A stretch of 33,080 nucleotides of DNA from Gammaproteobacteria bacterium (GCA_023257795.1 JALRBL010000088.1:1-33080); one strand, 5' to 3'; shown: positions 7,918-27,167, numbered from the stretch's first letter. The notes: generated by a model not told the origin, from the letters alone. Numbers and translations are program-made.

Positions 7918-8877
7918 CTAGCCGGCGTAGAAATTTGAATAATGCTTTCTAAATTGTGCAATGGGTCCGTCTTTGTCACAAAGTACAGGTTTTTCGGCAT
8001 ATTTTTTATGCTCCCAAATTGGAATGTCTTCTTTAACTTGCTTATCAATATCAGCAATGATTGCTGCTGAGACGCCTCCTGTTGGAGTTTTTCCATCAAC
8101 TTTTTTCTGCAAGAAGAAAAATCTAGTGATACATTTTTCAGATTCAACCGGAGTTGTCATGCCAAGCAGTAATGTGTCGCAAATACCCTCGAATTTAGTT
8201 GCGCTGTCACCAGGACCATTTGAAAAAGCAGTAATTTGACCCTTGATGGTTCCGCGTGGTGTTTCCATATCTGCTCTTTGCACGGAAGTTCTTTTTTGAT
8301 CTTGATAAGAAACTTCAAACTCCGGATAACTAACAACACCATGAACATATTTAAAATGAGCGGCATCTACAGCATTTTCAGCCATATCTTGAATGTGGCA
8401 ATTAATGTTATATTCAAATGCAACAAACTCGTCTGCCCATTCAGGATCGTCTATTTCAGGATGAATGGTTACATCGTACATAGGTTTAAGGCCATCAGGA
8501 TGATACCAGGCATAAATTAAATTATTTGCCTCAACGGTAGGATACCTAAAGATAGCTACCTCTCTTGCTTTTGGTGGGATGTTAGTAGCATAAGGTATAT
8601 CACCGATGGTTCCATCTGTTTTCCATCTCCAGGCATGGAAAGGGCATTCAATGCAGTTGTCCTTTACTATTCCACCATGACCTAAATGGGCTCCTAAATG
8701 AGGGCAGTATGCATCTAACATGGATACCTCCCCATTTTGACCCCTAAAAAGCACCTGATCCTCGCCAAAGTATCTAACTGCTTTTACTTGTCCTATTTCA
8801 AGACTGGCACTTGTATCTATGCAATACCATCCAAATGGAATAGGCATCGGATATCTTTTTTTTGTATTTTCATTCAT
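7918..8877 (-). CDS. Rieske [2Fe-2S] non-heme iron oxygenase, KshA-like
   Basis: Rieske motif CPHLGAHLGHGGIVKDNCIECPFHAWRW; mononuclear iron motif NAVDAAHFKYVH. Confidence 0.9.
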   Translation of the reverse strand: MNENTKKRYPMPIPFGWYCIDTSASLEIGQVKAVRYFGEDQVLFRGQNGEVSMLDAYCPHLGAHLGHGGIVKDNCIECPFHAWRWKTDGTIGDIPYATNIPPKAREVAIFRYPTVEANNLIYAWYHPDGLKPMYDVTIHPEIDDPEWADEFVAFEYNINCHIQDMAENAVDAAHFKYVHGVVSYPEFEVSYQDQKRTSVQRADMETPRGTIKGQITAFSNGPGDSATKFEGICDTLLLGMTTPVESEKCITRFFFLQKKVDGKTPTGGVSAAIIADIDKQVKEDIPIWEHKKYAEKPVLCDKDGPIAQFRKHYSNFYAG

Positions 8878-16788: not shown

Positions 16789-17424
16789 ATGAAGATAGCG
16801 ATACTCGGAGGAACTGGTTCTCTGGGAACCGGTTTAGCCAAACGTTGGCACCAAGCTGGCCATGAAATTTTTATTGGATCCCGCTCGATAGAATCTGCGC
16901 TTCAAGCAACAAATTTACTTGGTTTAGATGATTCTAGGGCCTGCTTAAACAATCATGCTGCAGCCATGGCAGATATTGCTTGCCTGACAGTGCCTTTTGC
17001 TCACCAAGCATCAACGCTGGAGTCTGTAAAATTATCTTTAGCGAATAAGATCTTAATTGATGCAACCGTTCCTCTTGTACCTCCAAAAGTAATGCGAGTT
17101 CAACTACCACAAGATGATGGTTGTGCAGCCCTAATGGCACAAAAAATCTTGGGGGATGAGGTTAGAGTTGTTTCTGCATTTCAAAATATTTCAGCTGAAC
17201 TTTTGCAATCGGATCATTCTATAAATTGCGATGTTTTAGTATGCGGTGATAAAAGAGATGATAGAGATCTGGTTATTAATCTTATATCTGATATTGGCTT
17301 AAAAGGGTGGCACGCAGGCCCTCTATGTAATTCTGCAGCAGCAGAAGCTCTGACTTCTGTATTAATAGCCATCAATAAGAATCATGAAATTTCACATTCT
17401 GGAATTGTTATTACTGGAGTGTAG
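16789..17424 (+). CDS. npdG: F420-dependent NADP+ reductase (NADPH:F420 oxidoreductase)
   Basis: MKIAILGGTGSLGTGLAKRWHQAGHEIFIGSRS dinucleotide-binding motif typical of NpdG/Fno; first gene of a contiguous F420 operon. Confidence 0.88.
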   Translation: MKIAILGGTGSLGTGLAKRWHQAGHEIFIGSRSIESALQATNLLGLDDSRACLNNHAAAMADIACLTVPFAHQASTLESVKLSLANKILIDATVPLVPPKVMRVQLPQDDGCAALMAQKILGDEVRVVSAFQNISAELLQSDHSINCDVLVCGDKRDDRDLVINLISDIGLKGWHAGPLCNSAAAEALTSVLIAINKNHEISHSGIVITGV

Positions 17425-17426
17425 CC

Positions 17427-18188
17427 ATAACGAATCTAACTCTCATCGGTTTAAAAAACTTTCCTCTTGTTTACCCAGGCGACTCGGTTGCGAAATTGAT
17501 TATTGCTGCAATACAAAGGTCTAGAAGAGTAATCAAAGATGGCGACATTTTTGCTATCGCACAAAAGATAGTATCTAAGTCAGAAAATCGTTATCGATTG
17601 CTTAGCGAATACAATCCAAGTAAAGAAGCAAAAAAAATCGCTAAGCAAATTGAAAAAGATGCAAGATTTGTTCAAGCGGTTTTGGAGGAATCGCATAAGG
17701 TCGTGAGATATCGAAAAAATGTTTTGATTGTCGAAAATAATATCGGTTTTATCCAAGCAAACGCAGGAATTGATAGATCAAACATAGATCAATCAGAGGA
17801 GAGAATCTTATTGTTGCCCAAAGATCCAGATGGCTCTGCAAATAAAATTAGATTAATACTTCGCAAGCACTTTAAAGTAAATATTGGAGTCATTATTACG
17901 GATACTATGGGAAGACCGTTTCGAAATGGAATCGTTGGTTTTGCTATTGGGGCAAGCAATATTAACTCAATCAGAGATGAGCGAGGTAAAAAGGATCTAT
18001 TTGGGAATGAATTGAAAGTTACTCAAATAGGGACGGCTGATGAGTTGGCTGCAGCTGCATCGTTGATAATGGGACAAGCAAATCAAAAAACTCCTGTTGT
18101 CTTGATACGAGGGCACGTTACCAATAAAAATGAAATTAATAATGCCAGTGCTCTTATTAGAGATGAACAGGAAGATTTATTTAGATGA
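17427..18188 (+). CDS. cofE: Coenzyme F420-0:L-glutamate ligase (single-domain CofE); probable ATA start
   Basis: LTLIGLKNFPLVYPGDSVAKLIIAAIQRSRRVIKDGDIFAIAQKIVSKSENRY, ITDTMGRPFRNGIVGFAIGASNI, GQANQKTPVVLIRG. ORF track starts at TTG 17496, but conserved-looking N-terminal sequence continues in frame to ATA 17427; GGAG lies at 17416-17419. Ends ATGA with cofD. Confidence 0.88.
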   Translation: MTNLTLIGLKNFPLVYPGDSVAKLIIAAIQRSRRVIKDGDIFAIAQKIVSKSENRYRLLSEYNPSKEAKKIAKQIEKDARFVQAVLEESHKVVRYRKNVLIVENNIGFIQANAGIDRSNIDQSEERILLLPKDPDGSANKIRLILRKHFKVNIGVIITDTMGRPFRNGIVGFAIGASNINSIRDERGKKDLFGNELKVTQIGTADELAAAASLIMGQANQKTPVVLIRGHVTNKNEINNASALIRDEQEDLFR

Positions 18189-19102
18189 AAACTCTACTAA
18201 TTTGCGGTGGGGTTGGAGGAGCCAAACTTGCTAAAGGTTTTTTTCTTAAAAATCATCCGATGGATATCCTTATCAATGTTGGAGATGACTTTAATCATTT
18301 TGGATTACATATATCACCCGATATTGATACCGTTATGTATACGCTTGCAGATCGTGTTAACCAAGAGCAAGGCTGGGGGTTAGCTGACGAGAGTTGGACA
18401 ACACTTAATAATATTGAATTTTTAGATGGTGAGACTTGGTTTCAATTGGGTGATAAAGATATGGCAACTCACCTTGTTCGAACTCAATTACTAAAAAATC
18501 ATTCCTTAACAGAAACTACTAAGAAAATTTCCTTATCATTTAATCTTGATATTAATTTATTTCCTGCATCAGATGAGCCAATCGAAACCATGATTCACAG
18601 TGGTAACAGCTGTTTAACTTTTCAAGAGTATTTTGTAAAACAAAAAGCTGAACCTAAGGTTACAAGCATTGCATATAGAGGACTGGAAAAAGCGTCATTA
18701 AATAAAAGAATAGATTTGAATAGCTACGATAATTTTGTTATTTGTCCATCAAATCCCTATTTAAGTATTGATCCAATAATTAAGATACAGGAGTTAAATA
18801 AATTTTTATCCCAAAATAAAGAAAAGGTATTTGTTGTATCTCCAATAGTGGCAAATCGATCATTAAAAGGTCCAACTGCTAAAATTATGCAATCACTTAA
18901 TCTAGATGTTAATGTGGTTTCTATAGCCAAGCACTATAACTATATTGCTAAGAATATTTTTTTAGACGACCTAGATAAGCATTATGTAAATGAAATTTCA
19001 TCCCTTGGAATGAATGCATACGTAAGTAAAAAATTGGTTATGCGCTCAATTCAGGACAAGGTTTCTTTAGCTGAAGATGTGATAAGAATTCTTAATGGTT
19101 AG
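18185..19102 (+). CDS. cofD: 2-phospho-L-lactate (or PEP/3PG) transferase CofD/FbiA
   Basis: LLICGGVGGAKLAKGF, NVGDDFNHFGLHISPDIDTVMYTLA, WFQLGDKDMATHLVRT, ICPSNPYLSIDPI. Confidence 0.93.
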   Translation: MKTLLICGGVGGAKLAKGFFLKNHPMDILINVGDDFNHFGLHISPDIDTVMYTLADRVNQEQGWGLADESWTTLNNIEFLDGETWFQLGDKDMATHLVRTQLLKNHSLTETTKKISLSFNLDINLFPASDEPIETMIHSGNSCLTFQEYFVKQKAEPKVTSIAYRGLEKASLNKRIDLNSYDNFVICPSNPYLSIDPIIKIQELNKFLSQNKEKVFVVSPIVANRSLKGPTAKIMQSLNLDVNVVSIAKHYNYIAKNIFLDDLDKHYVNEISSLGMNAYVSKKLVMRSIQDKVSLAEDVIRILNG

Positions 19103-19682
19103 ATTTATTGTCCCAGTTAAATTTACTGATCATTCAAAATCTAGGCTTAGTAATATTTTATCCCCCAAGCAACGTCTTTCTGTTATTGAACGAAGTTTAA
19201 ATAATTTAGTTGCATTTATCCAATGTTCATCATTGAAACCTGAAATTCATATCATCATCAAAGGCAATCAAATAAATTTAACCAATGTAAAGCAACATTA
19301 TTCAGATTTACCTCTTAATGAGGCTTTGTTGGAAATTTCAAATGATCATTTTAATGAGGGGGATCGGGTGGTAATACTTCATGCTGACCTTCCATTATTT
19401 TCAAAAACAACATTAACAAGAATAGAATCGTATATATCTAAAAAGACATCCTATATTTTCCCTGATAAATTGGGCCAAGGAACTAATGGTCTTATTTATT
19501 CACATGGAAATTTTAAAAAATTTGTTTTTGGACTCAATAGCTATATTAATTTTTTAAATCTTGCGAAAACACATAATCTATTACTAAATTCGGTAGAGGA
19601 TCCTGATATTAGCTATGATTTAGATGACGAAGAAGATTTTAACAATCTTCCTCAAAATGTTATTAACAAACTGATAGACTAG
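19095..19682 (+). CDS. cofC: CofC/FbiD-type guanylyltransferase of F420 biosynthesis
   Basis: FIVPVKFTDHSKSRLSNILSPKQR, VVILHADLPLF, FPDKLGQGTNGLIY, DISYDLDDEEDF; overlaps cofD and abuts fbiC. Confidence 0.88.
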   Translation: MVRFIVPVKFTDHSKSRLSNILSPKQRLSVIERSLNNLVAFIQCSSLKPEIHIIIKGNQINLTNVKQHYSDLPLNEALLEISNDHFNEGDRVVILHADLPLFSKTTLTRIESYISKKTSYIFPDKLGQGTNGLIYSHGNFKKFVFGLNSYINFLNLAKTHNLLLNSVEDPDISYDLDDEEDFNNLPQNVINKLID

Positions 19683-22097
19683 TTGGATATTCTTGTTATG
19701 ACTCACTTACCTAAAGCTCTTTCAGAACCCAGCCGACTCTTGAAGTTCACTGGTGCTTCTTTGGATCCCAAAGTGATCGCAAATATTCCATTATCTGATG
19801 AGCTTACCGCAGAAGCATTTGAGGTAAAGCAAAAAAAATATGGCAATACCATTTCATACTCACCCAAAGTCTTTCTTCCAATTACATTTTTATGCAGAGA
19901 TGTTTGCCATTATTGTACTTTTGCAAAGACTCCAAAAAAAATAGGAAGCCCTTATTTAACTAGAGATGAGATATTAAGAATCTCAAGAATGGGAGAGGAC
20001 CAGGGTTGCCGAGAAGCTCTCTTTACTCTAGGAGAAAAGCCAGAAAAAAGATACAAGACCGCAAGAGAGTTTCTTTACCAGCAAGGCTTTGATAATACTG
20101 TTGAGTATGTACTTCAACAAGCTTCTAGTGTCTTTCATGAAACGAAACTTATTCCCCATATTAATGCGGGTAATTTATCTATTGAAGAATTATTAAAATT
20201 TAAAAAATTCTCAGGCTCTGTTGGATTAATGCTTGAATCGTCTTCCAATCGATTATCAGAAAAAGGTATGCCACATTATGGTTCACCGGACAAGCTTCCC
20301 TCTGCAAGAATAGAAACCTTAATTAATGCTGGCTTAGCTAAAACTCCATTTACAACTGGTGTTTTGATAGGGATAGGTGAAACAAGAGAAGAGTTTATCG
20401 AAACCATTATAAAAATTGCCTCTATTCATCAAACCTATGATCATATCCAAGAAGTTATCATTCAAAATTTTGTACCAAAGTCTGATACCTTGATGCATGA
20501 TCATCCTGCGGCTTCAGGTGATTATTTGCTTTGGGCTATTGCTATAGCAAGATTAATACTGCCCTTAGATATTAGTATCCAAGCACCTCCAAATTTGAAT
20601 AATGATATTCTAATAAAACTCATTTCCTCTGGAATAAATGACTTTGGTGGTATTTCACCTGTTACTATTGACCACGTAAATCCCGAATCCCCATGGCCAA
20701 ACTTACAAAAACTCGAAAAGCTTTGTCGTAATTTCAATACTCATTTAATTCCAAGAACAACCGTATATCCAAAATATCTAACTAGAGAATACTCTTCTTT
20801 TTTATCTAAGGAAGTAAGAGCTAAACTATTGAAGCTCATTGAGGGTGATGGATATATTAAAGCCGATGATTGGAGAGCAGGGGAATCCAACGCTGTACCA
20901 TTATTCCATTCCCCAAGACATGGTCTTGCTAACATTAAAGAGTCATTAAAAAAACTCCAACTTAATCCTACCGTAACCAATGTTGCTGCTTTATTTCAAG
21001 CCAGAGGCAATGAAGTTAAATTTCTTGGTGATGCTGCTAACGAAATAAGGCAATCTTTACATGGCAATGAAATAACATTTGCTGTAAACAGAAATATAAA
21101 TTACACAAACATTTGTAAATACAGTTGTAATTTTTGTGCTTTCTCTAAAGGAAGGGGACACGATGACTTGAGGGGAAAACCTTACGACATTAATCACGCA
21201 GAAATTCAACGAAGAGTTATCGAAGCTGAGGAAAGAGGTGCAACCGAAGTGTGTCTTCAAGGCGGTATTCATCCTAGATATACAGGCGAAACTTACTTAC
21301 AAATATTAGATGCCATAAGAGAAGTCTCACAGAATGTGCATATTCATGCATTCTCACCTCTTGAAATAATGCAAGGTAGTGAAACTTTAAATATTAGTCT
21401 AGAAGAGTATTTAAAATTACTGAAATCGAAGGGATTGAATTCTATTCCAGGGACAGCTGCAGAAATTCTGAATGATTCAGTAAGAGATATAATTTGCCCA
21501 GACAAGCTTAATTCTGCTGAATGGAGGAGTGTAATAAGCAAAGCACATTCCTTTGGCATTCCGTCAACAGCAACAATAATGTTTGGTCATGTTGAAGATT
21601 ACAATGATGTAGCAATACATTTAATAGAGCTGTTAGACATACAATCTGAAAATGGTGGTTTTACAGAATTTGTTCCTCTGCCATTTGTCTCACAAGAAGC
21701 TCCAATTTATAGGCGTGGCTTGGCCAGATCAGGGCCATCTTTTAGGGAGGTTTTATTAATGCATAGCATAGCTAGACTTTTATTTAAGGAAAACTTACCT
21801 AATATTCAAGGGTCATGGGTTAAGGCAGGACTTGAAGGTCTGATTGAGTTAACCAATCATGGGATAAATGATATTGGAGGAGTATTAATGAACGAGTCCA
21901 TTACAAGAGCAGCTGGCTCTATACATGGTCAGGAGTTAGATATTGCTTTCATTGAGCAAAGGCTTGCTGAAAAAAATCTTCAGCTAGTTCAAAGAAACAC
22001 TCTTTATAATAAACTTACAACTGATTTTTCTAAGCTTCGTAAAAAACTTAATATTCCACTTTTAGATATTTCGTATTCATTTGATAGAGCGCATTAA
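19683..22097 (+). CDS. fbiC: FO synthase, fused CofG-CofH (bifunctional radical SAM)
   Basis: Two radical-SAM CX3CX2C motifs: CRDVCHYC (CofG half) and CKYSCNFC (CofH half, with FSKGRGHDDLRGKPYDI and EVCLQGGIHP). Start TTG 19683 or ATG 19698. Confidence 0.96.
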   Translation: MDILVMTHLPKALSEPSRLLKFTGASLDPKVIANIPLSDELTAEAFEVKQKKYGNTISYSPKVFLPITFLCRDVCHYCTFAKTPKKIGSPYLTRDEILRISRMGEDQGCREALFTLGEKPEKRYKTAREFLYQQGFDNTVEYVLQQASSVFHETKLIPHINAGNLSIEELLKFKKFSGSVGLMLESSSNRLSEKGMPHYGSPDKLPSARIETLINAGLAKTPFTTGVLIGIGETREEFIETIIKIASIHQTYDHIQEVIIQNFVPKSDTLMHDHPAASGDYLLWAIAIARLILPLDISIQAPPNLNNDILIKLISSGINDFGGISPVTIDHVNPESPWPNLQKLEKLCRNFNTHLIPRTTVYPKYLTREYSSFLSKEVRAKLLKLIEGDGYIKADDWRAGESNAVPLFHSPRHGLANIKESLKKLQLNPTVTNVAALFQARGNEVKFLGDAANEIRQSLHGNEITFAVNRNINYTNICKYSCNFCAFSKGRGHDDLRGKPYDINHAEIQRRVIEAEERGATEVCLQGGIHPRYTGETYLQILDAIREVSQNVHIHAFSPLEIMQGSETLNISLEEYLKLLKSKGLNSIPGTAAEILNDSVRDIICPDKLNSAEWRSVISKAHSFGIPSTATIMFGHVEDYNDVAIHLIELLDIQSENGGFTEFVPLPFVSQEAPIYRRGLARSGPSFREVLLMHSIARLLFKENLPNIQGSWVKAGLEGLIELTNHGINDIGGVLMNESITRAAGSIHGQELDIAFIEQRLAEKNLQLVQRNTLYNKLTTDFSKLRKKLNIPLLDISYSFDRAH

Positions 22098-22100
22098 ATT

Positions 22101-22979
22101 ATGGCAGTAAAAGATTTGATGATTGTATGTATTGGCTACTTACTAGTAATCTCTTTGATGTATTTTTTTTATGGAATTTTTCAACATCTATCAATATTGG
22201 AAAACTTATTTGTTGTTGATGTTTTAGCTACAATCTTTATTTTTTGTTGTAGTTTGATTTGGAAAAATTCAAGCTGGTATGATGCCTACTGGTCAGTTAT
22301 TCCTCCGGTTATTCTTCTCCTTCCTTTTATTTATGGCATAGCTCCTGATTCCAGCGAACGTATGTGGCTTTTAATTACCGGAGTTATGTTTTGGGCTGCT
22401 CGATTGACCTATAACTGGGCAAGAAATTGGGAGGGCTTTTCCCATGAGGATTGGAGGTATATACGCATGAAAGGATCCCAGACTAGTCCGCTGGCAAAAT
22501 TTTTAATTGACTTTACCAGCATCCATCTTATTCCAACTCTTTGCGTATATTTAGCACTGATACCTGCTATTAATGCATTGTATTTCAGCGATACACAACT
22601 TAACTCCTTGGATTTTTTTGCGTTCGGAATATTGATATGTGCTGTGATAATTCAAATAGTTTCTGATCAGCAAATGTATAACTTTAGACAAAATTTATTA
22701 AATAAAGGAAAGACCATGCAATCTGGACTGTGGTTTTATTCGCGCCATCCAAACTATTTCGGTGAATTGTTGTTTTGGTTTGGTTTAGCCATCTTTAGCT
22801 TAGCTTCTTATAATTTCAGTGTTGTAAACTATATAGGTTTTGTTGTGATGTATTTGTTAATTGCTATTGGATCTGTAAAATTGATGGACGATCGATCTTT
22901 AAGAACTAGACCAGATTTTGTAGCTTATGCTAAGAATACTCCAAAGATTTGGATCAACTTATTTAAGAAGAGGTTTTAA
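22101..22979 (+). CDS. DUF1295 / steroid 5-alpha-reductase-like membrane protein
   Basis: Multiple TM segments and C-terminal GLWFYSRHPNYFGELLFWFGLA; starts 3 bp after the fbiC stop. Confidence 0.88.
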   Translation: MAVKDLMIVCIGYLLVISLMYFFYGIFQHLSILENLFVVDVLATIFIFCCSLIWKNSSWYDAYWSVIPPVILLLPFIYGIAPDSSERMWLLITGVMFWAARLTYNWARNWEGFSHEDWRYIRMKGSQTSPLAKFLIDFTSIHLIPTLCVYLALIPAINALYFSDTQLNSLDFFAFGILICAVIIQIVSDQQMYNFRQNLLNKGKTMQSGLWFYSRHPNYFGELLFWFGLAIFSLASYNFSVVNYIGFVVMYLLIAIGSVKLMDDRSLRTRPDFVAYAKNTPKIWINLFKKRF

Positions 22980-22981
22980 TA

Positions 22982-24265
22982 ATGAAAAAGATATTAGCAT
23001 CCATGCTTTTTATTTCAACATTTACATTTTCTCAATCATTATCTGAACAACTTGAGAATGATATTGATGGATTAATGACTAAAGTTATTGAATGGAGACA
23101 TCATTTTCACCAATATCCTGAGTTATCTAACAGAGAGTTTAAGACATCTGCATATATAAAAAATGTCTTAGAGAATTTAGGGCTTGAAGTTCAAAGCGAT
23201 ATTGCTATAACAGGACTAGTTGCAATGATCAGAGGTTCTCAACCTGGTCCGCTTATAGCTCTTAGAGCAGATATTGATGGGCTTCCTGTCACTGAAGAGT
23301 TAGGTTTACCATTTTCATCAAAAGAAAAGTCAGTTTATCAAGGGAATGAAGTTGGAGTTATGCATGCATGCGGGCATGATGCGCACATAGCTATTCTTTT
23401 GGGTGTTGCTGAGTATTTAGTAAAAAATACTGACAAACTAAAAGGTGACATTATGCTTATATTTCAACCTGCTGAAGAAAGTCCACCTGAAGGTGAAGAG
23501 GGCGGAGCGTATTTAATGTTAAAAGAAGGTATATTTGAGCTCGAGAAACCAGATGCAATTTTTGGGCTTCATGTAACTAACGGTCCTCATGGAACAATTT
23601 TTTTGAAACCTGGACCTGCCATGGCTTCAGCTGAAGCATTTAGAATTACGGTTGAAGGAAAACAAACACATGGCTCAAGACCTTGGGAAGGCGTAGATCC
23701 AATTCTTGCTGCTTTTAACATCGGTACCACCATGCAGACTATTGTATCTAGGAGATTGAATATTCTTGATAGCCAAGCTGTGGTCTCTATTGGCATGGTT
23801 AATGGTGGAACAAGAAATAACATTATTCCTCAAAAAGTTGTTATGGAGGGGACCATAAGAACCTTTGAGAAAAATTATCTAGATAAAATTCATGCAGAAA
23901 TTAAAACTATTGCAACGAACGTAGCTGAAGCTCATAACGCCACTGCAAAAGTTGAATTTGCTGTTTATGGGAGTTATCCAGTAACCTTTAACGATTTAGA
24001 TTTATCAGCCCAACTAGAAGAATCATTAATAAAAGCAAGTGGCGGGAAATATACGAGATGGAATGTCCCTAGAACCGGAGCAGAAGACTTTTCTTTTTTT
24101 GCTCAAGAAGTTCCAGGTTTATACTTTTTCTTAGGTGTAAATCCTGAAAATCAAGAGTCAAGTTATACCAATCATTCACCAAAATTTTATGTTGATGATG
24201 ATGCGCTTGATACGGGAGTTAAAGCATTCATTCAATTGGTAGAAGACTACAGCGAAAGCTATTAA
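22982..24265 (+). CDS. M20 family amidohydrolase/peptidase with signal peptide
   Basis: MKKILASMLFISTFTFSQS signal-like start; RHHFHQYPELS, ALRADIDGLPV, HACGHDAHIAILLG, IFQPAEE, HTNHSP-like YTNHSPKFYVDDDAL. Confidence 0.94.
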   Translation: MKKILASMLFISTFTFSQSLSEQLENDIDGLMTKVIEWRHHFHQYPELSNREFKTSAYIKNVLENLGLEVQSDIAITGLVAMIRGSQPGPLIALRADIDGLPVTEELGLPFSSKEKSVYQGNEVGVMHACGHDAHIAILLGVAEYLVKNTDKLKGDIMLIFQPAEESPPEGEEGGAYLMLKEGIFELEKPDAIFGLHVTNGPHGTIFLKPGPAMASAEAFRITVEGKQTHGSRPWEGVDPILAAFNIGTTMQTIVSRRLNILDSQAVVSIGMVNGGTRNNIIPQKVVMEGTIRTFEKNYLDKIHAEIKTIATNVAEAHNATAKVEFAVYGSYPVTFNDLDLSAQLEESLIKASGGKYTRWNVPRTGAEDFSFFAQEVPGLYFFLGVNPENQESSYTNHSPKFYVDDDALDTGVKAFIQLVEDYSESY

Positions 24266-25448: not shown

Positions 25449-27167
25449 ATGAGTACAGAATGGAACTTTGAATATGATGTAGTTGTTGTTGGATCTGGAA
25501 ATGGAGCTCTCACAGCTGCCCTGTGTTCCCATGATGGCGGCGCTAAAGTTCTTGTTATTGAAAAAAGTTCACAGCTTGGCGGAACTAGTGCTTCATCTGG
25601 TGGAGGTGTCTGGATTCCCAACAATAGATATGCTGTTGCTGCTGGTGCTGATGATAGCATTCAGGATGCAAGGGATTATATTGCTAGCGTTTCTCCTGAA
25701 GGGAAAATTAATCCTGAGTTAATAGAAACCTACATTCAGGAAGGTCCAAGAATGGTGGATTATCTTCATAGTAACTCAAGAGTTAAGTATTTAAACTTAC
25801 CCCATTATCCAGACTATTTTCCAGATAATAAAGGCGGGAAAGCTGGCAATAGATCTATGGAGCCTGAACCCATCGCTGGAACATATCTTGGAGAGGATTT
25901 AAAGCTTTTAAGAGATCAACATCCTCAGACAACATTTAGGATGGGGCCTATCACCATGAATTTTACTCAAGTTGAAGGTCAACTTTTGTTGGGAGCTTTG
26001 CCTGGTTGGAAAAAGTTATTTGCAAAATTATTTACCAAATATATCTTAGATTTACCTATGCGACTTAAATGGGGCTGGAAAGATAGAAGGTTAACAATGG
26101 GAAATGCTGGCATTGCTAGGCTTTTGTTATCGCTCAAAGATAGAAAAGTACCCATTTGGTGCAATTCTGCCTTTACAGATCTCATCACGAATGAAAGCAA
26201 TGAAGTCATTGGAATTAAGGCCATTAAATACGGTGAAGAGATTACTATTAAAGCTAATAAAGGAGTTATTTTGGCATCTGGAGGGTTTGAAAAAGATCAA
26301 GCTCTACGTGATCAATATTTGCCCAAACCCACAGATGCTTCTTGGAGTGCAGCCAATATGCATAATACCGGCGATGGCCTTAAAGCTGCTCTTAAATTGG
26401 GTGCAAAAACACATCAAATGGATTGGGGATGGTGGTCAACTACCATGAAAGTTCCTGGCGTTGAAAAGGGGTGGCTATCAATGGTTGATAAATCCATGCC
26501 TGGAAATTATACGGTTAATAAAAATGGACTGAGATTTTCTAATGAATCTCAAAATTACGTAAGTTTTGTTAGCGATATGTTTCGTGAATACTCAGAGGGT
26601 AACCCTTGCGCTCCTTGTTACATGATTTTTGATAGTAACTTTAGACAAAATAGACCCTGCGGACCATTGTTGCAAGGAAGCATGCAACCAGATAGCAGAG
26701 TGCCAAAAGAATGGTGGACTCCCTCTTTTTTAACGAAAGCAGAATCTCTTGAAGACTTAGCTATAAAAGTTGGAATTAATGTGGAAGGCTTACTAGCTAC
26801 ACAGCAAAAGGTTAATGAATACTCTATTACTGGTAAAGATCCTGACTTTAAAAGAGGCGATAGCGTGTATGACAGATATTATGGTGATCCATCTGTATCT
26901 CCTAATCCTTGTTTAGCGCCGCTCGAGAAAGCACCATTTTATTGCATGGTTTTGTATCCTGGCGAAATGGGAACAGCTGGAGGTCTTGTAATAGATACCA
27001 AGGGAAGAGTCCTGGATAACGATGGACTACCAATTAAGAACTTGTATGCATGTGGTAATTGCACAACCGCATTATTGCCCAAGTATCCTGGACCAGGTTC
27101 AACCTTGGGACCTGCGATGACCTTTGGTTATTTAGCTGCAAGAGATATCACAGGAGCAAACTTTTGA
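25449..27167 (+). CDS. FAD-dependent oxidoreductase, 3-ketosteroid-delta1-dehydrogenase (KstD)-like
   Basis: DVVVVGSGNGALTAALCSHDGGAKVLVIEKSSQLGGTSASSGGGVWIPNN; C-terminal ACGNCTTALLPKYPGPGSTLGPAMTFGYLAAR. Confidence 0.85.
   Translation: MSTEWNFEYDVVVVGSGNGALTAALCSHDGGAKVLVIEKSSQLGGTSASSGGGVWIPNNRYAVAAGADDSIQDARDYIASVSPEGKINPELIETYIQEGPRMVDYLHSNSRVKYLNLPHYPDYFPDNKGGKAGNRSMEPEPIAGTYLGEDLKLLRDQHPQTTFRMGPITMNFTQVEGQLLLGALPGWKKLFAKLFTKYILDLPMRLKWGWKDRRLTMGNAGIARLLLSLKDRKVPIWCNSAFTDLITNESNEVIGIKAIKYGEEITIKANKGVILASGGFEKDQALRDQYLPKPTDASWSAANMHNTGDGLKAALKLGAKTHQMDWGWWSTTMKVPGVEKGWLSMVDKSMPGNYTVNKNGLRFSNESQNYVSFVSDMFREYSEGNPCAPCYMIFDSNFRQNRPCGPLLQGSMQPDSRVPKEWWTPSFLTKAESLEDLAIKVGINVEGLLATQQKVNEYSITGKDPDFKRGDSVYDRYYGDPSVSPNPCLAPLEKAPFYCMVLYPGEMGTAGGLVIDTKGRVLDNDGLPIKNLYACGNCTTALLPKYPGPGSTLGPAMTFGYLAARDITGANF

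Follow-up and report, generated by a model that had tools for sequence, protein, structure and literature searches.

A chromosomal F420 operon with a probable non-canonical cofE start in the marine SAR86 clade

Introduction

Can a surface-ocean gammaproteobacterium make the cofactor F420, and if so, is the pathway its own? The question is raised by a stretch of 33,080 nucleotides (hereafter the window) from an uncultured gammaproteobacterium (GCA_023257795.1, JALRBL010000088.1:1-33080), in which a first-pass annotation had noted an F420 biosynthesis operon that might be horizontally acquired or might represent an under-appreciated F420 metabolism of the lineage. As described below, the host belongs to SAR86, a clade of surface waters whose uncultured heterotrophs rank with the most abundant in the upper ocean. 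The main review of F420 describes production in alpha- and betaproteobacteria, and gammaproteobacteria are unmentioned in its main text. In open-access papers, the scope of our search, no link was found between SAR86 and F420 biosynthesis or luciferase-like monooxygenases; judged by their titles, the six papers in which SAR86 and F420 are both named address different topics, one of them hydrogenases.

Results

The host family is SAR86

The window corresponds to contig C95 in a 1.27-Mb draft genome with a completeness of 85.7%. To place this genome, the sequence of the 16S probe SAR86-1245 was taken from PMC8701031. Its target site, which falls within the 16S (SSU rRNA) gene, was found in 60 of the 202 genomes examined from the order; each of the 60 belongs to the family of the window (f1), and a reversed control gave 0 matches. 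The host family is thus the SAR86 clade; the window's own incomplete assembly has no match to the target, so the assignment is made at the family level. The same locus is found in an independent second assembly from the same genus (L002, taken to be one record with contig C9 of G146, as both lie on a contig of 26,727 bases), with 49-82% identity for the F420 genes and 50-93% for the neighboring genes, which argues against misbinning.

Five genes for F420 biosynthesis

Five plus-strand genes occupy positions 16789-22097, and their coordinates, overlaps, and family models bear out the tight arrangement noted in the first-pass annotation. Families were assigned with curated NCBIfam models and cut-offs. 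The operon is led, here and in relatives, by npdG (16789..17424), the product of which scores 182 bits against the NADPH:F420 oxidoreductase model TIGR01915 (cut-off 150), as expected of an F420-reducing enzyme. The F420-0:gamma-glutamyl ligase gene cofE (17427..18188, with a proposed ATA start at 17427) gives 281 bits against TIGR01916 (cut-off 181), and CofE matches the structures 2phn, 2g9i, and 7uld with E about 1e-54. The final gene, fbiC (19683..22097), encodes a CofG-CofH fusion that scores 458 bits against TIGR03550 (CofG) and 489 bits against TIGR03551 (CofH), both above cut-off, and that contains the two radical-SAM CX3CX2C motifs of an FO synthase (CRDVCHYC and CKYSCNFC). The HMM searches proposed as a check on the annotation were therefore passed by NpdG, CofE, and both halves of FbiC, whereas the two remaining proteins fall slightly below the curated cut-offs. 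CofD (18185..19102), a phospholactyl/enolpyruvyl transferase, scores 240 bits against a cut-off of 257 (TIGR01819), which is the sole family matched and is covered at about full length. CofC (19095..19682), a fast-evolving guanylyltransferase, scores 92 bits against a cut-off of 105 (TIGR03552), its only strong match, over nearly the full length. Alignment of CofC with its structure matches 2i5e and 7p97 shows that the conserved Lys is in place, as are the Asp motifs that bind metal, and the residues that bind metal and phosphate are retained relative to the list in PMC8764529.

The cofE and cofD genes overlap by 4 bp, cofD and cofC by 8 bp, and cofC abuts fbiC. The npdG-cofE-cofD-cofC-fbiC order is kept in about 30 relatives, and a chance arrangement is therefore excluded. 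The transcription unit probably extends further: a gap of 3 bp separates fbiC from a gene for a DUF1295 membrane protein of a steroid-reductase-like fold family (22101..22979, plus strand; PF06966, 148 bits), and a gap of 2 bp separates this sixth gene from a seventh, an M20-family amidohydrolase/peptidase named by sequence (22982..24265, plus strand). DUF1295 directly follows fbiC in the three F420 genera of the family (g1, g5, and g7) and in three of four loci read from a second family, f3, and the order of DUF1295 and M20 peptidase is maintained in g1, g5, and g7. DUF1295 was also considered as an F420-specific partner and rejected, as 193 of the order's 202 genomes encode relatives of it, F420-free SAR86 among them. 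A promoter scan returned fewer sites than shuffled sequence and is uninformative. Taken with a window GC content of 36.5% and a host order that contains SAR86, these features support the idea of a one-transcript F420 operon in a low-GC gammaproteobacterium.

Other genes around the operon include a ketosteroid-dehydrogenase-like flavoprotein that flanks the F420 locus (25449-27167), a KshA-like Rieske oxygenase farther off (7918-8877), SDRs, and an amidohydrolase, and the region may possibly serve cyclic-compound catabolism.

The side chain

Three residues of the 3-phosphoglycerate (3-PG) enzyme of Mycetohabitans differ in the CofC of the window: Ser162 is replaced by Gly, Met91 by Leu, and His145 by Gln. 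Because these residues are replaced, the substrate of CofC is more likely to be 2-PL or PEP than 3-PG. An operon for 3PG-F420, in which the side chain derives from 3-phosphoglycerate and a dehydro-F420 reductase is unnecessary, would account for the finding that no reductase of the FbiB C-terminal type is encoded in the operon, and such a cofactor is produced by another Gram-negative organism, Mycetohabitans (PMC8764529). The replacements at all three positions, and above all the Gly at critical position 162, where a Ser or Thr marks the 3-PG-type enzyme, make this reading unlikely.

A route from PEP would require a dehydro-F420 reductase (the FbiB C-terminal domain or FbiE), and none was identified. 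The earlier statement that every recognized step is encoded is thus slightly too strong. No nitroreductase was found in the window's own incomplete genome; this absence from a draft is uninformative, as the sister genome and most SAR86 carry nitroreductases, and for the same reason an argument from it to a reductase-free pathway was rejected. Two nitroreductases of relatives were checked as FbiE-like reductases, and neither matches an F420 model.

A proposed near-cognate start codon for cofE

The homologous frame of cofE begins at about position 17427, where ATG, GTG, and TTG are absent; the first TTG, at 17496, lies 23 codons inside the homologous region and is unlikely to be the start. A canonical start within 8 codons is absent from 27 of 28 orthologues of operonic cofE in f1, as compared to 1 of 339 comparisons for npdG, cofD, cofC, DUF1295, and other neighbors (one SDR was set aside from this count because its query start was wrongly chosen). 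The first canonical codon is the 148th of the frame in the sister genome and the 71st to 101st in others, past the active-site motifs. The two genera g1 and g5 differ in the candidate codon, which is ATA in the former and ATT or ATC in the latter; such codons often come in pairs, and GGAG or GAGA is found a short way upstream. In the window, this Shine-Dalgarno-like element is a GGAG within the 3' end of npdG (17416..17419, plus strand), 7 bp 5' of the proposed start, and the sister genome (L055) has AGGAG at the equivalent place. When close relatives are compared, pN/pS falls from 0.90 over the 14 upstream codons to 0.21 over the first 24 codons past the proposed start and is 0.16 in the later part of the gene, a contrast that is weakened on the upstream side, where the 14 codons overlap npdG in another frame. 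Operonic cofE of f1 thus seems, from these alignments, to start at a near-cognate ATA, ATT, or ATC codon (AUA, AUU, or AUC in the mRNA), like infC.

The alternative is that cofE begins at a canonical codon farther in, or is reached through a frameshift or read-through from npdG. Genomes of g7 do have an ATG 12 codons inside, which could be the start in that genus, and a chance TTG or ATG occurs upstream, within npdG, in a few genomes. However, in five genomes (L055, L060, L067, L068, and L071) the first canonical codon is reached about 60-140 codons into the frame, beyond the conserved DGD...AQK..SKSENR motif, and in seven (L064, L066-L069, L071, and L072) an in-frame stop stands immediately 5' of the ATT or ATC, which excludes fusion to or frameshifting from npdG. 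Together with purifying selection from the proposed codon onward, these observations leave a canonical start quite improbable for the family.

A near-cognate start appears to have company in SAR86. The infC genes of the clade (L112-L141) are likewise without ATG, GTG, or TTG at the start and, by tblastn, seem to have an ATA/ATC-type start. In E. coli, AUU starts are found in infC and pcnB only, and the infC case is tied to self-regulation by IF3 (PMC9410913). The SDR gene that follows the KstD-like gene has ATA at the start position in three g7 copies (L061, L063, and L070); most of its orthologues have an ATG just beyond the tested range, and L055 is without a canonical codon in the stretch read. 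Judging from the g7 copies, near-cognate starts may be somewhat commoner in SAR86 than in E. coli.

Distribution and descent

Across the class, cofH is patchy (15 of 369 genomes). Within the order, 32 of 203 genomes have cofH above cut-off, and these belong to f3 and to genera g1, g5, and g7 of f1, where the count is 29 of 107. The FbiC sequences of SAR86 fall together in a single clade of their tree (support 98/95), composed of f1 (100/100) and f3 (100/99), and the SAR86 copies of CofE likewise form one clade (99/97). The infC-rpmI-rplT markers split g1, g5, and g7 from the other genera of f1 (100/100). Because the FbiC and CofE trees track the SAR86 family lines, the chromosomal operon was probably already carried by the common ancestor of these two families, f1 and f3, with a later loss in a sister clade within f1.

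Horizontal acquisition had been suggested instead, and the patchiness in the class, the plasmid-borne F420 operons of alpha- and betaproteobacteria, and the identical gene order on Sinorhizobium pSymA would all fit a recent transfer from another bacterium. In contrast, the SAR86 clades of FbiC and CofE follow families and genera, the flanks are conserved, an orphan cofE marks the locus in the sister genera, and the operon has a GC content of 35.1%, close to that of the window. The FbiC and CofE trees and the infC-rpmI-rplT markers, along the lines of the check that the annotation had called for, give no support for a recent transfer into the lineage. The RNase T and bfr neighbors that had been read as a hint of transfer are uninformative on this point; the locus itself is informative, as pdxJ-grxD-rnt also flanks cofE in F420-lacking relatives. 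Recent acquisition is thus very unlikely, and for the lineage of the window this reading is not supported and should be dropped; an older transfer, predating the ancestor of SAR86, may have occurred. The other suggestion, under-appreciated F420 metabolism, is supported, given the 29 cofH-bearing f1 genomes, all with luciferase-like (LLM) oxidoreductases, and the outcome of the literature search.

Genomes with only part of the pathway

In the F420-free genera of f1, 41 of 72 genomes retain a CofE homologue that matches TIGR01916, nearly always above cut-off, although they lack both cofH and LLM genes. No other F420 gene is nearby at the 18 loci read (L201-L218, for example L201:7590-8351), and the orphan cofE adjoins pdxJ-grxD-rnt or the M20 peptidase, the neighborhood of the window's operon. 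The orphans are sister to the operonic f1 copies in the CofE tree (100/98). They begin with an ordinary ATG, which aligns to the proposed near-cognate codon, and operonic cofE of f3 starts with ATG or TTG. Of the 53 columns that hardly vary among F420 producers, orphan CofE keeps 41, but several are fully replaced; Gly162, for example, has become Thr, and Arg94 has become Ser. A change of substrate in orphan CofE is a fair hypothesis from these alignments. A broader proposal is that the AUA, AUU, or AUC start throttles the glutamate ligase of F420 and makes its translation dependent on IF3 stringency, which would add a natural case to infC and pcnB, while orphan CofE, with its ATG start, would be a gamma-glutamyl ligase for a new substrate; we offer this tentatively, at somewhat less than even odds.

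A different partial gene set is seen in one draft genome of g5 (G077; L142, contig C2, 8608-9240), in which npdG-cofE-cofD-cofC are present, fbiC is missing, 56 bp separate the cofC stop from DUF1295, and 8 LLM genes are encoded. This single genome would fit a possible salvage of FO from neighbors.

LLM oxidoreductases as likely users of the cofactor

Each of the 35 genomes from g1, g5, and g7 encodes LLM-type (PF00296) proteins, at 2 to 8 copies, as compared to 0 of 72 genomes of the other f1 genera. They accompany cofH in all 29 cofH-positive f1 genomes; six further genomes have LLM proteins but no cofH, and these are drafts from the same three genera, to which both F420 and LLM genes are confined within f1. 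This co-occurrence is a strong pattern, but it tracks one main split rather than 107 independent events, such that its P value overstates independence. In f3, F420 genera have 5-10 LLM genes and other genera 0-2; one genome of an F420 genus (G150, g15) has 10 LLM genes, a partial CofE, and no match for cofH. The window's own genome has four LLM genes: two above the cut-off of TIGR03617, one above that of TIGR03619, both F420-type LLM subfamilies, and one truncated. By sequence, these genes adjoin an acyl-CoA synthetase-like gene, an aldolase-like gene, and a paralogue of the nitronate-monooxygenase-like gene of the window. A search for F420H2_quin_red (PF04075) gave no match in the window's own genome, and the control set was equally silent.

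The shared restriction of F420 and LLM genes to three genera points to F420H2-dependent LLM enzymes as the use of the cofactor, bearing in mind that LLM families can use FMN. Given the acyl-CoA and aldolase-like neighbors of the LLM genes and the ketosteroid- and KshA-like genes near the F420 locus, a reasonable guess for the substrates would be unsaturated cyclic or acyl compounds that are reduced in catabolism.

Discussion

We propose that a branch of SAR86 has a chromosomal, vertically inherited F420 operon that feeds LLM enzymes and in which, in f1, cofE has a near-cognate start. A probability of roughly 0.85 is given to this reading, for which gene content, gene order, inheritance, LLM co-occurrence, and the missing canonical cofE start were computed. 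Against it count the CofD and CofC scores, which are under curated cut-offs, and the use of predicted start codons. In the proposed scheme, FbiC would make FO, CofC and CofD would add a phospho-acid side chain to it, CofE would append glutamates, and NpdG would reduce the resulting F420 using NADPH. The F420H2 would then serve several LLM-family oxidoreductases encoded elsewhere in the genome. Since the cofE cistron of f1 appears to start at AUA, AUU, or AUC, synthesis of CofE would probably be slow in comparison with that of its neighbors, and it might depend on IF3. The chemistry, the cofactor of the LLM enzymes, and this translational effect are what we infer from the computed features.

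A further reading is that the product is mainly FO rather than F420, as the antenna pigment of a DNA photolyase in sunlit water. SAR86 is generally known to inhabit surface water, and in PMC9178010, Synechococcus is described as having a DNA photolyase with a deazariboflavin antenna. For FO, however, fbiC alone would suffice, and cofC, cofD, cofE, and npdG are retained beside it, with cofE under purifying selection and LLM genes in company; moreover, G077 keeps cofE, cofD, and cofC without fbiC. An antenna role is the least probable of the alternatives considered, and the F420 operon is retained as the preferred reading.

The operons of alpha- and betaproteobacteria (Sinorhizobium pSymA, Aromatoleum plasmid 2, Leisingera, and Paraburkholderia) have the same five functions as that of SAR86, in the identical order on pSymA, and several have LLM genes nearby. 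These operons are on plasmids and have cofE annotated in most cases, whereas the SAR86 operon is chromosomal, is tied to DUF1295, has an apparent near-cognate cofE start, and encodes an FbiC less than 50% identical to theirs. In the record for Sinorhizobium meliloti pSymA, cofE lies within the operon (L186:1400-2175) and is missing from the gene table. The mycobacterial FbiC/FbiD/FbiA/FbiB system shares with SAR86 the CofG-CofH fusion and the PEP/2-PL-type CofC residues; in contrast, its FbiB is a CofE-nitroreductase fusion, while SAR86 has a single-domain CofE and its genes in one operon with npdG. With E. coli infC and pcnB, the known AUU cases, SAR86 cofE would have in common a conserved near-cognate AUH start, but it serves cofactor biosynthesis, belongs to an operon, and has canonical counterparts in f3 and among the orphans.

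The locus therefore adds an important marine clade to those with this known pathway, here as a real and inherited gene set whose variant feature is the unusual start proposed for cofE. Gene callers limited to ATG, GTG, and TTG truncate or miss SAR86 cofE, which creates a false gap in the pathway. The split between SAR86 with and without F420 offers a clean comparison within one family, and the orphan CofE and the genome lacking fbiC open a direct way to test cofactor loss and possible FO salvage. If SAR86 makes F420, models of how marine organic matter is turned over should include a low-potential redox cofactor and its LLM reductases.
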